Shown: positions 2,542-6,410 of the stretch, in pieces | Numbering within the stretch: the first letter of the stretch is position 1 | Layout of the letters: every line of letters begins with the position of its first letter | DNA from: Sphingomonadales bacterium | GTDB taxonomy: Bacteria > Pseudomonadota > Alphaproteobacteria > Sphingomonadales > Sphingomonadaceae | Direction of reading: 5' to 3' | NCBI GenBank assembly: GCA_005773165.1 | Contig: SXHP01000059.1 | Coordinates: forward strand, 1 to 39,110 | DNA length: 39,110 nt | The notes under the pieces: generated by a model | Seen by the model: the letters and a program-made list of their open reading frames with translations, nothing else | What the model was told of the DNA's origin: nothing | The model's database searches: none | Translations under genes and position numbers: made by a program

Positions 2542-2661
2542 CCTGACGTCGTGGGGGAAGTAGCCTGACAGGACGGGGGCTTCTTCCTGCCGAATCGGGG
2601 GCGTTTGCCTGACCGTACGGGGGTATCCTGACCGATTGGGGGCATCCTGACCTCATGGGGG
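2542..2661 (+). repeat. oriV: Six iterons, core CCTGAC-N5-GGGGG (one CCTGCC variant): candidate oriV
   Basis: Cores start at 2542, 2564, 2586, 2608, 2627 and 2646 (spacing 22, 22, 22, 19, 19), directly upstream of a replication initiator gene. Confidence 0.85.
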
Positions 2662-2679: not shown

Positions 2680-2718
2680 CCTGACCTGACTTGACGGTGG
2701 CGACCGAGTCAGGTCAGG
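2680..2718. promoter_or_regulatory. 12-bp perfect inverted repeat CCTGACCTGACT-N15-AGTCAGGTCAGG: candidate Rep autorepression operator
   Basis: Arms at 2680-2691 and 2707-2718; each contains the iteron half-site CCTGAC; located at the start of repA. Confidence 0.7.
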
Positions 2719-3974
2719 ATGGAGGTGTGGCCAAGGCACTTGAACCTGAAAGCGGCCTCGTCGTCGATCTCGTCGACGACGAAGCGGAAGATTCGGCGAT
2801 CGTCGGTCGTGCCATGCGGGTGTCTTCCGCCTTGTCGGCACGCCGTACGGAGCAGTTCGCCAAGCCCGGCCGGCTCGTCGAGGTTCGCTTCGTCAAGGGC
2901 CAATCGCTCAGTCTCACCGCCTCCCGCCTCCTCGCGCTGATGATCCTTGCCGCGGGCGGCGAAGCGTGGCGGGACACGCCGCACCGGATGCGCAAGGTCG
3001 ACATTCGGCGCGGGCACAAGGGCAACGAGCGGATTTCCGACATGCTCGAGGAGCTGCACCGCACGCTATTCGCTGAGGACGACCGAAGCTGGCGTGGCAA
3101 GAAGGCGACGCGCAAGTTCTCGCTCATCCAGATGTCGAAGGAAGAGGCCGATGACGAGGATGGCGTCGAGGCAGGCTGGATCGAGTGGCAGTTCACGCCC
3201 GACGCGCGGAGGCTAATTCAGGAATCGGAGACCTATGCCGTCCTGAACCGGCAGGCGGTGCTCAAGTTTCGATCGGCCTATGCATTGAAGCTGTATGAGC
3301 TCGGGGCGTTGCGTATCCACCGGCGCCAGCCCGTCTGGCGCTGCGACATGCCAGCGTTGCGCGCCGCGCTCGGAATCGCGCCGGAGATCTACAAGGATTT
3401 CGCGCAGCTACGGCGCAAGGTGCTCGAGACGGCCAAGGCCGAGATTGACCAGCTCGCGCATTTCCAGGTCGAGTGGAAGGAAGTGCGACAGGGGCGAACC
3501 GTTGTCGAGCTCGAGTTCCGCTTCGTCGCCAAAGATCCCCCGGCGCAGATCGACACCGTCGACGAGCTGTCGCGCCATTCGGTCGGGCGACGGCCTCGCC
3601 GCGAAGGCAGTGTCGAGACCCTTGCGATCGCGGCTGTTCCGACAGACGAAGACGACAACGACGATCGGGTGCCTCCCGGCACAATCGACGCGGTTGTCGC
3701 CAAGGTGGCGAGCGCCATGTCCGCGCAGGCCAGGAAGCCCTTCCCTGCCCCGAGCCCCGCGACCTTCCCAACCGGGACGCTGCGGTGGGCGGGTGGCGAG
3801 GAGTTCCTCAAGATCGGGCGCGACTATGCGGGCGGGTGGGATGTGGACCTCGTGGCCGACGCATATCGCTCCCACATGGGCGAGCGGCTGGAGCGGTTGA
3901 CCGGCGCGAAACTCCTCAAGAGTTGGCAGGGCTTTTGCGAAAGCTATGTCGCGCGAAAGGGTCGTCCGCACTGA
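2691..3974 (+). CDS. repA: Plasmid replication initiator, Rep_3/RepB-like winged-helix protein
   Basis: ORF downstream of the iterons. LKFRSAYALKLYELGALRIHRRQ and MPALRAALGIAPEIYKDFAQLRRKVLETAKAEI match Rep_3-type winged-helix architecture. Start uncertain (TTG 2691, GTG 2727 or ATG 2817). Confidence 0.8.
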   Translation: MTVATESGQDGGVAKALEPESGLVVDLVDDEAEDSAIVGRAMRVSSALSARRTEQFAKPGRLVEVRFVKGQSLSLTASRLLALMILAAGGEAWRDTPHRMRKVDIRRGHKGNERISDMLEELHRTLFAEDDRSWRGKKATRKFSLIQMSKEEADDEDGVEAGWIEWQFTPDARRLIQESETYAVLNRQAVLKFRSAYALKLYELGALRIHRRQPVWRCDMPALRAALGIAPEIYKDFAQLRRKVLETAKAEIDQLAHFQVEWKEVRQGRTVVELEFRFVAKDPPAQIDTVDELSRHSVGRRPRREGSVETLAIAAVPTDEDDNDDRVPPGTIDAVVAKVASAMSAQARKPFPAPSPATFPTGTLRWAGGEEFLKIGRDYAGGWDVDLVADAYRSHMGERLERLTGAKLLKSWQGFCESYVARKGRPH

Positions 3975-3975
3975 A

Positions 3976-3991
3976 TTTGCACCGGTGCAAA
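3976..3991. promoter_or_regulatory. Perfect 16-bp palindrome TTTGCACCGGTGCAAA (copy 1): candidate parS or par operator
   Basis: Self-reverse-complementary; same core as 5353-5370. Confidence 0.6.
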
Positions 3992-4016: not shown

Positions 4017-4033
4017 GCCCCCATCGGGTCAGG
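4017..4033 (-). repeat. Inverted-orientation iteron (CCTGACCCGATGGGGGC on minus strand)
   Basis: Exact CCTGAC-N5-GGGGG match between repA and parA; a plus-strand CCTGAC half-site lies at 3996-4001. Confidence 0.7.
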
Positions 4034-4126: not shown

Positions 4127-5344
4127 GTGGAAGGGGGAAGGGTGGCAGGATCGCTGAGGCTTGCAAGCCACGCCGACCGGGATCGGGTGGCGGCGCTTGC
4201 GGAACGCTCGTCGGCAATCCTCGAGAAGCTGCGCGACAGCGCGCAGAGCAAGCGGGCGGACGAACGTCGTGAGCCGCTGTTCACGATCGGCAAGGCGGCC
4301 GAGCTGGTGGGCCGTACCTCCGCCGCGATACGTGAGGCCGAGAAGGACGGCCGGCTTCCGGTCGTCGATCGGACCGAAAGCAACCGGCGCGTGGGCTATA
4401 CGCTCGGCCAGCTGAACGACATGCGAGGCGTGTTCCAGACCCGTCCTTGGCGGCTGCCTGAGGATCCTTGCGCGATCGTGGCGGTGCAGAACTTCAAGGG
4501 CGGTGTCGGCAAGTCGACGCTGTCGGTCCACCTCGCGCAGTATCTCGCGATGCGAGGCTACCGCGTCCTGCTCGTCGACTGTGACAGCCAGGCATCGGCG
4601 ACGACCTTATTCGGGTACGTGCCCGATCTCGACCTCGACGAGTCGCAAACGCTGTATCCGTTCCTCCGCGAGGACGAGCGCACGTCGCTCGATTATGCGA
4701 TCAGGCGCACTCACTTCGACGGTCTCGACCTGATCCCGTCCAACCTGCGGCTGTTCCAGTCGGAATATGAGCTCGCCGCACGCATGGCGCGGGGGCAAGG
4801 AGCGCTCCTGGATCGGCTTCAGCAGGGTATCGCTTCGGTCGCCGACCGCTATGATATCGTCGTCATCGATCCGCCACCCGCACTTGGCGCGATCTCGCTG
4901 TCGGTTCTTCGTGCCGCCAACGCGCTGGTGGTCCCGGTGCCGCCCACGGTGATGGACTTCGCGTCGACCGCGGCGTTCCTCGCCATGCTCGACGAAACCA
5001 TGGAGGTGCTCGCAAACCACGGCATGGAGACCGAGCTCGCCTTTTTGCGCTTCGTCGCTTCCAAGGTCGACGAGAACAAGTCGATGCAGAAGGAGCTGAT
5101 GCGGCTGATGGGCCAGCTCTACGGTCAGTCGCTGGTGCGCACACCGCTCAAGGACTCCGCCGAGATCGACAATGCGAGCGCGCGGCTGATGACCGTCTAC
5201 GAGCTTGACGGTCCCACGACGAGCCGCTCCGTGCGCGATCGTTGCCTCGCCTATCTGGATGGCGTCAACGGCGAAATCGAGATCGACATCAGGTCGATGT
5301 GGCCAAGCCACGAGGCGCGGTTGCGGCGCGAGGGACTGGCATGA
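4127..5344 (+). CDS. parA: ParA partition ATPase with N-terminal HTH (P1 ParA-like)
   Basis: AVQNFKGGVGKSTLSVHLAQYLAMRGYRVLLVDCDSQASATTLFG (deviant Walker A) and DIVVIDPPPALG; N-terminal FTIGKAAELVGRTSAAIREAEKDGRLP MerR-like HTH. GTG start 4127 or 4142. Confidence 0.93.
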   Translation: MEGGRVAGSLRLASHADRDRVAALAERSSAILEKLRDSAQSKRADERREPLFTIGKAAELVGRTSAAIREAEKDGRLPVVDRTESNRRVGYTLGQLNDMRGVFQTRPWRLPEDPCAIVAVQNFKGGVGKSTLSVHLAQYLAMRGYRVLLVDCDSQASATTLFGYVPDLDLDESQTLYPFLREDERTSLDYAIRRTHFDGLDLIPSNLRLFQSEYELAARMARGQGALLDRLQQGIASVADRYDIVVIDPPPALGAISLSVLRAANALVVPVPPTVMDFASTAAFLAMLDETMEVLANHGMETELAFLRFVASKVDENKSMQKELMRLMGQLYGQSLVRTPLKDSAEIDNASARLMTVYELDGPTTSRSVRDRCLAYLDGVNGEIEIDIRSMWPSHEARLRREGLA

Positions 5345-5352
5345 GAAGCGAG

Positions 5353-5370
5353 TTTTGCACCGGTGCAAAA
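5353..5370. promoter_or_regulatory. Perfect 18-bp palindrome TTTTGCACCGGTGCAAAA (copy 2): candidate parS or par operator
   Basis: Self-reverse-complementary, in the parA-parB intergenic gap. Confidence 0.65.
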
Positions 5371-5390: not shown

Positions 5391-6410
5391 ATGAGCGGAA
5401 AGAACAGCAGTTTCGCCGCCGACCTGGCGAACGCTATCGACACCCAGTCGGACCTGCCCGCGCGCCCCGCCAGACTGGCGACGGGTGTGCTCGCGGGTCG
5501 CGGCAACCGGCTCGCCGACCTCGCGTCCGGCTCGCTCGTCAACCGCGTTGTCGAGCTTGTAGACCCGGCGCGGTGCAGGATGTGGCCCGGTCACAACCGC
5601 GATTATGCCTCGCTCTCGGAGGAGCGTTGCCACGATCTGATTGAAAGCCTCAAGGCGCAGGGCAAGCAGGAGATGCCGGCGCTGGTGCGGCGCTTGCCGG
5701 GTGACCCGGATCATGAGTTCGAGGTGATCTCCGGGGCGCGGCGGCACTGGTCGGTCAGTTGGCTGCGCAGCCACAACTACGCGGACTTTCGCTTCCTGAT
5801 CGAGATCCGCGACCTAACCGACGAGGAAGCCTTCCGGCTCTCCGACCTCGAGAACCGCGCGCGCGTGGACATCTCGGATTTCGAGCGCGCGAGGGACTAC
5901 CTTCGCGCGCTGGACGAGTATTACGGCGGCAAGCAGGGAGCGATGGCCGAGCGGCTGAAGGTGAGCGGGAGCTGGATGAGCCGGTATCTCGATCTGGCGC
6001 GCCTGCCGCCCAGCATCCTTGCCGCGTTCGCCTCGCCACATGACCTCGGCATCAAGCATGTGACGATGCTGAAACCTTTGCTCAAGCCCGCCGATCGGCG
6101 AGCCCGAGTGGAGAGGGCAGCGACTGAGCTGGCGGCCCGACGCGGGGCAGGGGAGGGCGGGCCCTTCTCGCCACCCGAGGTCATCCGCTACCTCAAGGCG
6201 GCAGCCGACGCCCCCAAGAAGTCAGGCTCCCCCAAGAAGTCAGGATCGGGCAGTGTCATCGCGAACGCCAATGGCATGCCGGTTTTGCGCTTGGATCGGC
6301 AATCGAAAAAGTCAGTTACCTTGACGCTGCTGCCGCGCGACGGAGCGTCGCGGGCGGACGTGCAGACAGCGTTCAACGAGGTGCTCGACCGCCACTGGCC
6401 TGCCGACTGA
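5391..6410 (+). CDS. parB: ParB/Spo0J-like partition protein
   Basis: HEFEVISGARRHWSVSWLR, DLTDEEAFRLSDLENRARVDISDFERARDYLRALDEYYGG and QGAMAERLKVSGSWMSRYLDLARLPP: ParB nuclease-like and HTH motifs; adjacent to parA. Confidence 0.93.
   Translation: MSGKNSSFAADLANAIDTQSDLPARPARLATGVLAGRGNRLADLASGSLVNRVVELVDPARCRMWPGHNRDYASLSEERCHDLIESLKAQGKQEMPALVRRLPGDPDHEFEVISGARRHWSVSWLRSHNYADFRFLIEIRDLTDEEAFRLSDLENRARVDISDFERARDYLRALDEYYGGKQGAMAERLKVSGSWMSRYLDLARLPPSILAAFASPHDLGIKHVTMLKPLLKPADRRARVERAATELAARRGAGEGGPFSPPEVIRYLKAAADAPKKSGSPKKSGSGSVIANANGMPVLRLDRQSKKSVTLTLLPRDGASRADVQTAFNEVLDRHWPAD
6211..6244 (-). repeat. Two tandem iteron-core copies within parB (CCTGACTTCTTGGGGG on minus strand)
   Basis: cccccaagaagtcagg at 6211-6226 and 6229-6244, 18-bp period, encoding PKKSGS PKKSGS. 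Confidence 0.75.

Follow-up and report, generated by a model that had tools for sequence, protein, structure and literature searches.

The locus described here raises the question of why the coding sequence of a plasmid partition gene, parB, should hold two copies of the iteron core found at the plasmid's own replication origin. The window analysed was a stretch of 39,110 nucleotides, in which the pattern CCTGAC-N5-GGGGG matched exactly at eight sites compared with 0.01 expected from shuffled sequence. These sites were divided between oriV (five, plus strand), parB (two, minus strand) and the gap between rep and parA (one, minus strand). A preliminary description of this DNA had reported two exact matches to the oriV core on the minus strand of parB, encoding PKKSGS-PKKSGS, and had judged a chance match improbable. 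Both statements held. The copies were located at 6211-6226 and 6229-6244 (each CCTGACTTCTTGGGGG), spaced 18 bp apart and encoding (A)PKKSG and (S)PKKSG, respectively, with the product PKKSGS-PKKSGS corresponding to ParB residues 275-286 and the same codons conserved in relatives. A chance origin of the parB sites was ruled out by the shuffle expectation together with this conservation. As a tandem repeat the two copies are not independent of one another within a single sequence, and it is their conservation in relatives that provides independent evidence. The site in the rep-parA gap (4018-4033, minus strand; CCTGACCCGATGGGGG), a candidate control iteron 26 bp from a parS candidate, was additional to those previously described and was present again in most relatives. 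When two mismatches were tolerated, 24 sites were found in the window versus 19.8 expected; since this count is close to expectation, it is the exact core that carries information. Elsewhere in the 2.5-Mb draft assembly the pattern was present three more times, dispersed over other contigs.

The oriV array (2542-2661, plus strand) comprised exact copies at 2542, 2564, 2608, 2627 and 2646 as well as a sixth copy, a CCTGCC variant at 2586, with a spacing of 19-22 bp throughout. The rep ORF (2691-3974, plus strand) encodes a Rep3-family initiator with two winged-helix domains, matching Pfam PF01051 and PF21205 above cut-off. An inverted repeat at 2678-2720 (ATCCTGACCTGACT / AGTCAGGTCAGGAT), in which only the CCTGAC half of the iteron is repeated, is a candidate operator for Rep autorepression. 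A repeated iteron half of this kind is also seen in operators bound by initiator dimers, as in F and R6K. Under a strict pattern, the CCTG[AT]CCTG[AT]C..GTCAGG repeat was found in 34 of 61 relatives. The TTG listed as the rep start at 2691 falls within this inverted repeat, and the true start is therefore probably further downstream. A Rep3 gene beside the origin, a direct-repeat array upstream of rep and an operator-like inverted repeat sharing part of the iteron were thus all present, as is characteristic of iteron-controlled theta plasmids with Rep3 initiators. The AlphaFold model of Rep was of moderate quality (mean pLDDT 64.5), and its top 46 PDB matches were all iteron initiators, nearly all DNA-bound, including RepE with its iteron (1rep) and its operator (2z9o), pi with its iteron (2nra) and a further Rep-iteron complex (8aan); global TM-scores were low, so these matches inform family assignment and not geometry. 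The window Rep resembles RepE of F and pi of R6K in having two winged-helix domains (Pfam Rep3_N and Rep3_C) and a predicted fold matching 1rep, 2z9o and 2nra, but sequence identity to them is low (10-18 %), and a search by sequence found no solved structure related to it. The CCTGAC and GGGGG elements are 11 bp apart from start to start, approximately one helical turn, a distance that would suit one winged helix per half-site.

Downstream of rep, parA (4127-5344, plus strand) encodes an AAA_31 ParA ATPase (PF13614) with a weak N-terminal MerR-like match, and parB (5391-6410, plus strand) encodes a SopB-type HTH centromere-binding protein (PF18090) whose model matched SopB, ParB and Noc structures. 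The combination of a ParA ATPase with a SopB/ParB-type protein is that of type Ia partition systems. The parB iterons fall in the linker between the HTH domain and the C-terminal domain, where residues 277-286, inside the repeat, had pLDDT values below 50, the sole such stretch beyond the N-terminal tail. Going by the model, the PKKSG-bearing linker is probably disordered, and such a low-confidence linker would be a permissive location for dual-use DNA. Two identical perfect palindromes (TTTGCACCGGTGCAAA) at 3976-3991 and 5354-5369, the latter beginning 37 bp before parB, are candidate parS sites. The positions of these candidates (approximately -37 and -1430 from parB) recurred in many but not all relatives, with sequences differing by about two bases or more. 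The iteron copies themselves were considered as parS and rejected, this palindrome being the better candidate.

Conservation of the repeat was assessed in ParB relatives drawn from PLSDB plasmids, 80 GTDB loci and Sphingomonadaceae genomes. The codon set comprised 67 parB genes, dereplicated and taken from sphingomonad and Caulobacterales plasmids, 63 of which were less than 93 % identical to each other at the nucleotide level (median pairwise identity 65 %), plus four distant ones. Nearly all ParBs about 60 % or more identical to that of the window had both iterons at the same codons; a site in the gap and an array on the plus strand ahead of rep were usual as well. Across the 67 sequences, the linker peptide P[KRNT][KRA][ST]G occurred in 126 copies. 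Its Pro was encoded by CCC in 126/126 (26.5 % elsewhere in the same genes), its Ser by TCA in 113/113 (5.8 % elsewhere in the same genes) and its Thr by ACA in 13/13 (11.5 % elsewhere). The codon for the second basic residue ended in G in all 126 copies (AAG, AGG or CGG, with a single Ala as GCG), and the codon preceding Pro ended in C in every copy. Codon positions outside the core varied, with AAA, AAG, AGA and AGG used in the spacer and GGA, GGC, GGT and GGG used for Gly. Comparison of the nucleotide motif with the peptide in homologues, a check proposed in the preliminary description, thus returned iteron codons in every copy and no instance of the peptide with non-iteron codons, the outcome which that description had named as refuting. 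Its suggestion that the parB copies may be Rep-binding control sites hidden in a coding region is supported by this result, and the function it proposed, copy-number control with a possible link to partition, would agree with the precedents of F incC, P1 incA and the V. cholerae 39-mers. The top six codon-conserved columns among 167 degenerate parB columns all lay within the repeat, which was also the strongest peak of synonymous conservation across rep, parA and parB (excess 0.27; runner-up 0.16). Parsimony reconstruction on the ParB tree gave 0-3 codon changes for the repeat's Pro and Ser columns, versus approximately 0.37 per sequence at other degenerate columns; one other column, Ser2, was about equally conserved by this measure. 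Judged by these codons, the parB motif is conserved through selection on the DNA letters across Sphingomonadales and Caulobacterales, in a family of large plasmids carried by Sphingomonas, Caulobacter and related bacteria. The parB sequences are very probably Rep sites selected at the DNA level, where we infer Rep binding from the sequence.

Variation among relatives was informative as to which parts of the arrangement are constrained. Spacer residues had changed with the core kept in L026 (PKASG), L058 (PTKSG) and L121 (PNKSG), whilst the spacing between copies was altered to 21 and 24 bp in L075 and L089, respectively, with both cores retained. In the four cases where a copy lacked the core (L041, L051, L068 and L088), the peptide was gone too. 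A single parB copy was present in these four and in L121-L123 and L125, and two copies are therefore not essential, given that several plasmids retain only one. The distant plasmids L122, L123 and L125 (ParB 55-57 % identical) carried one site within an otherwise different linker. The most common deviation in parB was A to T at position 5 (CCTGTC), which replaces Ser with Thr, and CCTGTC was also the most common interior deviation among one-mismatch oriV sites. CCTGTC sites were almost confined to oriV, the gap and parB, with one stray at W12:181669. Covariation of Ser/Thr with oriV base 5 was considered and set aside, as the trend was weak (CCTGTC in 21/233 oriV sites of the Ser clade and 5/19 of the Thr clade) and serves only to mark CCTGTC as a natural iteron variant. 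Inspection of the relatives by eye revealed no clear pattern of compensation between the numbers of gap and parB sites. In L121 (Brevundimonas sp. BH3 plasmid pBH3a), the oriV array was on the minus strand, unlike in the other relatives seen, with the strands of the gap and parB sites unchanged; given this inversion, orientation is seemingly not critical.

Presence of the motif in parB was closely associated with its presence at the origin. Of 135 loci longer than 5.5 kb, scored as positive outside parB when two or more motif copies lay there and as positive in parB when it held one or more, 91 had both, 41 had neither, three had the parB motif alone and none had the outside (origin) motif alone, an association that is partly phylogenetic as much of the negative class is a separate, more distant ParB clade with other initiators. 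Among the three parB-only loci, the record of L090 begins between oriV and rep, with the oriV sites at the other end of the circle (G687:C2:148442-148706); L164 has no cognate rep nearby; and L002 has rep split into two frames, no oriV iteron left and a second parB copy decayed to CCTATC. L002 is Sphingomonas sp. FARSPH plasmid p01, which also has a second parAB, and the decay of ACA to ATA in one of its parB iterons looks like site decay following replicon loss. The closest contrast within range was L124 from Komagataeibacter (ParB 54 % identical, no such rep adjacent), which was without the motif and without the peptide. Neither motif nor peptide was present in L126, a second parAB in the window's own genome (G000:C157) with an RPA-type initiator (PF10134), or in L127, which has another Rep3. 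In 12 complete plasmids of 70-383 kb, oriV, the gap and parB accounted for all exact CCTGAC sites; one replicon of 1.3 Mb contained a few extra sites, and reversed-pattern controls gave 0-1 per plasmid. No relatives were found among viral contigs.

We propose, at a probability of roughly 0.6, that the parB and gap sites are Rep-binding control iterons, a split set akin to incA and incC that would restrain copy number through handcuffing or titration. By the same analogy, we lean towards negative copy control as their main job. The plasmid's own Rep3 initiator would bind the two 16-bp parB sites and the gap site outside the origin. As at oriV, Rep monomers would recognize CCTGAC as one half-site and GGGGG as the other, with roughly one turn of the helix from one to the next. 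Rep bound at the parB and gap sites would then restrain re-initiation by pairing with Rep-bound oriV iterons, by looping in cis and handcuffing in trans, and also by titration of Rep; incC of F and incA of P1 act likewise. Since the sites lie inside parB and beside parS, they could lose their Rep to ParB loading at parS, which would tie initiation to partition. The replication and partition machinery of the plasmid are probably wired together. A stronger version holds that the parB iterons are a dedicated coupling device, by which Rep on the parB and gap sites would hold the origin in check until removed by ParB that has assembled on parS, allowing refiring only after uptake into partition, and that selection fixed two sites in coding sequence across two bacterial orders for this reason; we regard this version as tentative and rather doubtful.

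Known systems offer partial parallels. F incC contains five iterons downstream of repE that are thought to loop with ori iterons, and its deletion raises copy number (PMC13028717). The present locus is similar in that its non-origin iterons follow a Rep3-type initiator gene and adjoin a ParAB system, but in place of a five-iteron array downstream of the repE frame it has one gap site and two sites within the parB coding sequence. It also shares with P1 the gene order origin, repA, control iterons, parA and parB, the repA-parA interval of P1 containing nine incA iterons. The P1 annotation places all 14 iterons in incA or the origin, whereas here the element is partly inside parB; a matrix scan found no iteron in P1 parB, where the best match scored 4.2 versus 18-31 for the 14 real iterons. 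In the window and likewise in relatives, the motif recurred beyond the minimal origin, on the downstream side of rep and close to par, as in incA/incC-type layouts. A non-coding multi-iteron array between rep and parA was absent, the gap holding one exact site, and the small size of the set (two parB copies and one gap site), compared with five in F incC and nine in P1 incA, argues against the control-iteron reading. On chromosome 2 of Vibrio cholerae, ParB2 spreads into or binds 39-mers, out-competes the initiator RctB and promotes replication (PMC3688505). The resemblance lies in inhibitory initiator-binding sites near centromeres and in the competition between ParB2 and the initiator there (PMC3688505; PMC6090056). 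RctB is, however, a different initiator and the 39-mers differ in sequence from the iterons, whilst here a single motif is common to the gap, parB and origin sites and the initiator is of the Rep3 type.

Several alternatives to control iterons merit consideration. The Rep sites might mainly tune parAB expression, with the gap site repressing or tuning parA and the parB sites forming a roadblock, matching ParA and ParB to the level of Rep. The gap site does lie approximately 110-140 bp upstream of parA, even where rep is not beside parA (L123), and the parB sites come after about 80 % of the gene. A roadblock at that point would yield truncated ParB, however, the sites are full iterons and do not take the inverted-repeat form of an operator, and no promoter-like sequence was detected around the gap site by a sigma-70 scan, weak evidence in itself; we consider this explanation unlikely. 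We would also assign a low probability to a replication-partition checkpoint, in which ParB loads at adjacent parS, spreads and clears inhibitory iterons of Rep, or replication of these iterons resets Rep binding, such that initiation follows assembly of the partition complex. Candidate parS sites flank the gap iteron and parB, and competition between V. cholerae ParB2 and RctB provides a precedent (PMC3688505), but the evidence at this locus is positional and parS is deduced from a palindrome.

Selection at the peptide level, whereby ParB needs a basic PKKSG linker and the DNA match is a by-product, would account for a linker that is nearly always basic and for spacer-encoded residues that are mostly Lys or Arg. 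It is very improbable in view of the identical rare codons in all copies (elsewhere 6 % of Ser codons are TCA), the recurrence of the motif in the non-coding DNA of oriV and the gap, the single copies in otherwise different linkers of distant ParBs (L122, L123 and L125) and the lack of the motif in ParBs with other initiators. Codon use excludes peptide selection as a full explanation, and a dual constraint is possible: part of the constraint may act on the peptide, as the linker is nearly always basic though the spacer is free in oriV. A low-complexity or mRNA effect was ruled out, as the motif is also found in non-coding oriV and gap sequence, in most plasmids occupies the strand opposite to that of the oriV copies, and has a largely free N5 spacer. 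It is similarly hard to credit that ParB or a host factor, and not Rep, binds the sites. Rep is placed at the parB sites by sequence, which leaves room for another protein; yet the motif is identical to the oriV iteron, its CCTGAC half is shared with the repeat upstream of rep, the candidate parS is an unrelated palindrome, and the motif tracks Rep type and not ParB family as such.

No description of iterons in parB was found in the open literature searched, with most subscription journals outside coverage. Control iterons are already known, and it is the conserved pair inside the coding sequence of a partition gene that is, as far as searched, apparently undescribed in open literature. The known control iterons of F and P1 lie between rep and par, whereas those described here lie within the partition gene itself, and their carriers include pSLPG of Sphingobium sp. 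SYK-6 (L090). A parB transferred to a foreign replicon would bring the sites along, which may help explain the linkage of rep and par. Synonymous recoding would provide a clean test of whether initiator sites close to a centromere couple replication to partition, a question for which V. cholerae chromosome 2 has otherwise been the main system, and in vectors of this type a recoded or swapped parB may alter copy control.

Two further observations were made among the relatives. Different iterons (ACCGATGATCTC) mark a second family of Rep3 plasmids, represented at L161:3950-4410, L168:3955-4410 and L164:10128-10460; a 10-bp partial match to these iterons in the parB of that family apparently falls at conserved Glu-Val/Ile-Ile codons and was rejected as probably due to chance. 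L146 (G359:C1:2820513-2824526) encodes a close ParB, has two CCTGTC iterons in that gene and lies inside a 4.1-Mb contig, which suggests an integrated plasmid or a replicon fusion.
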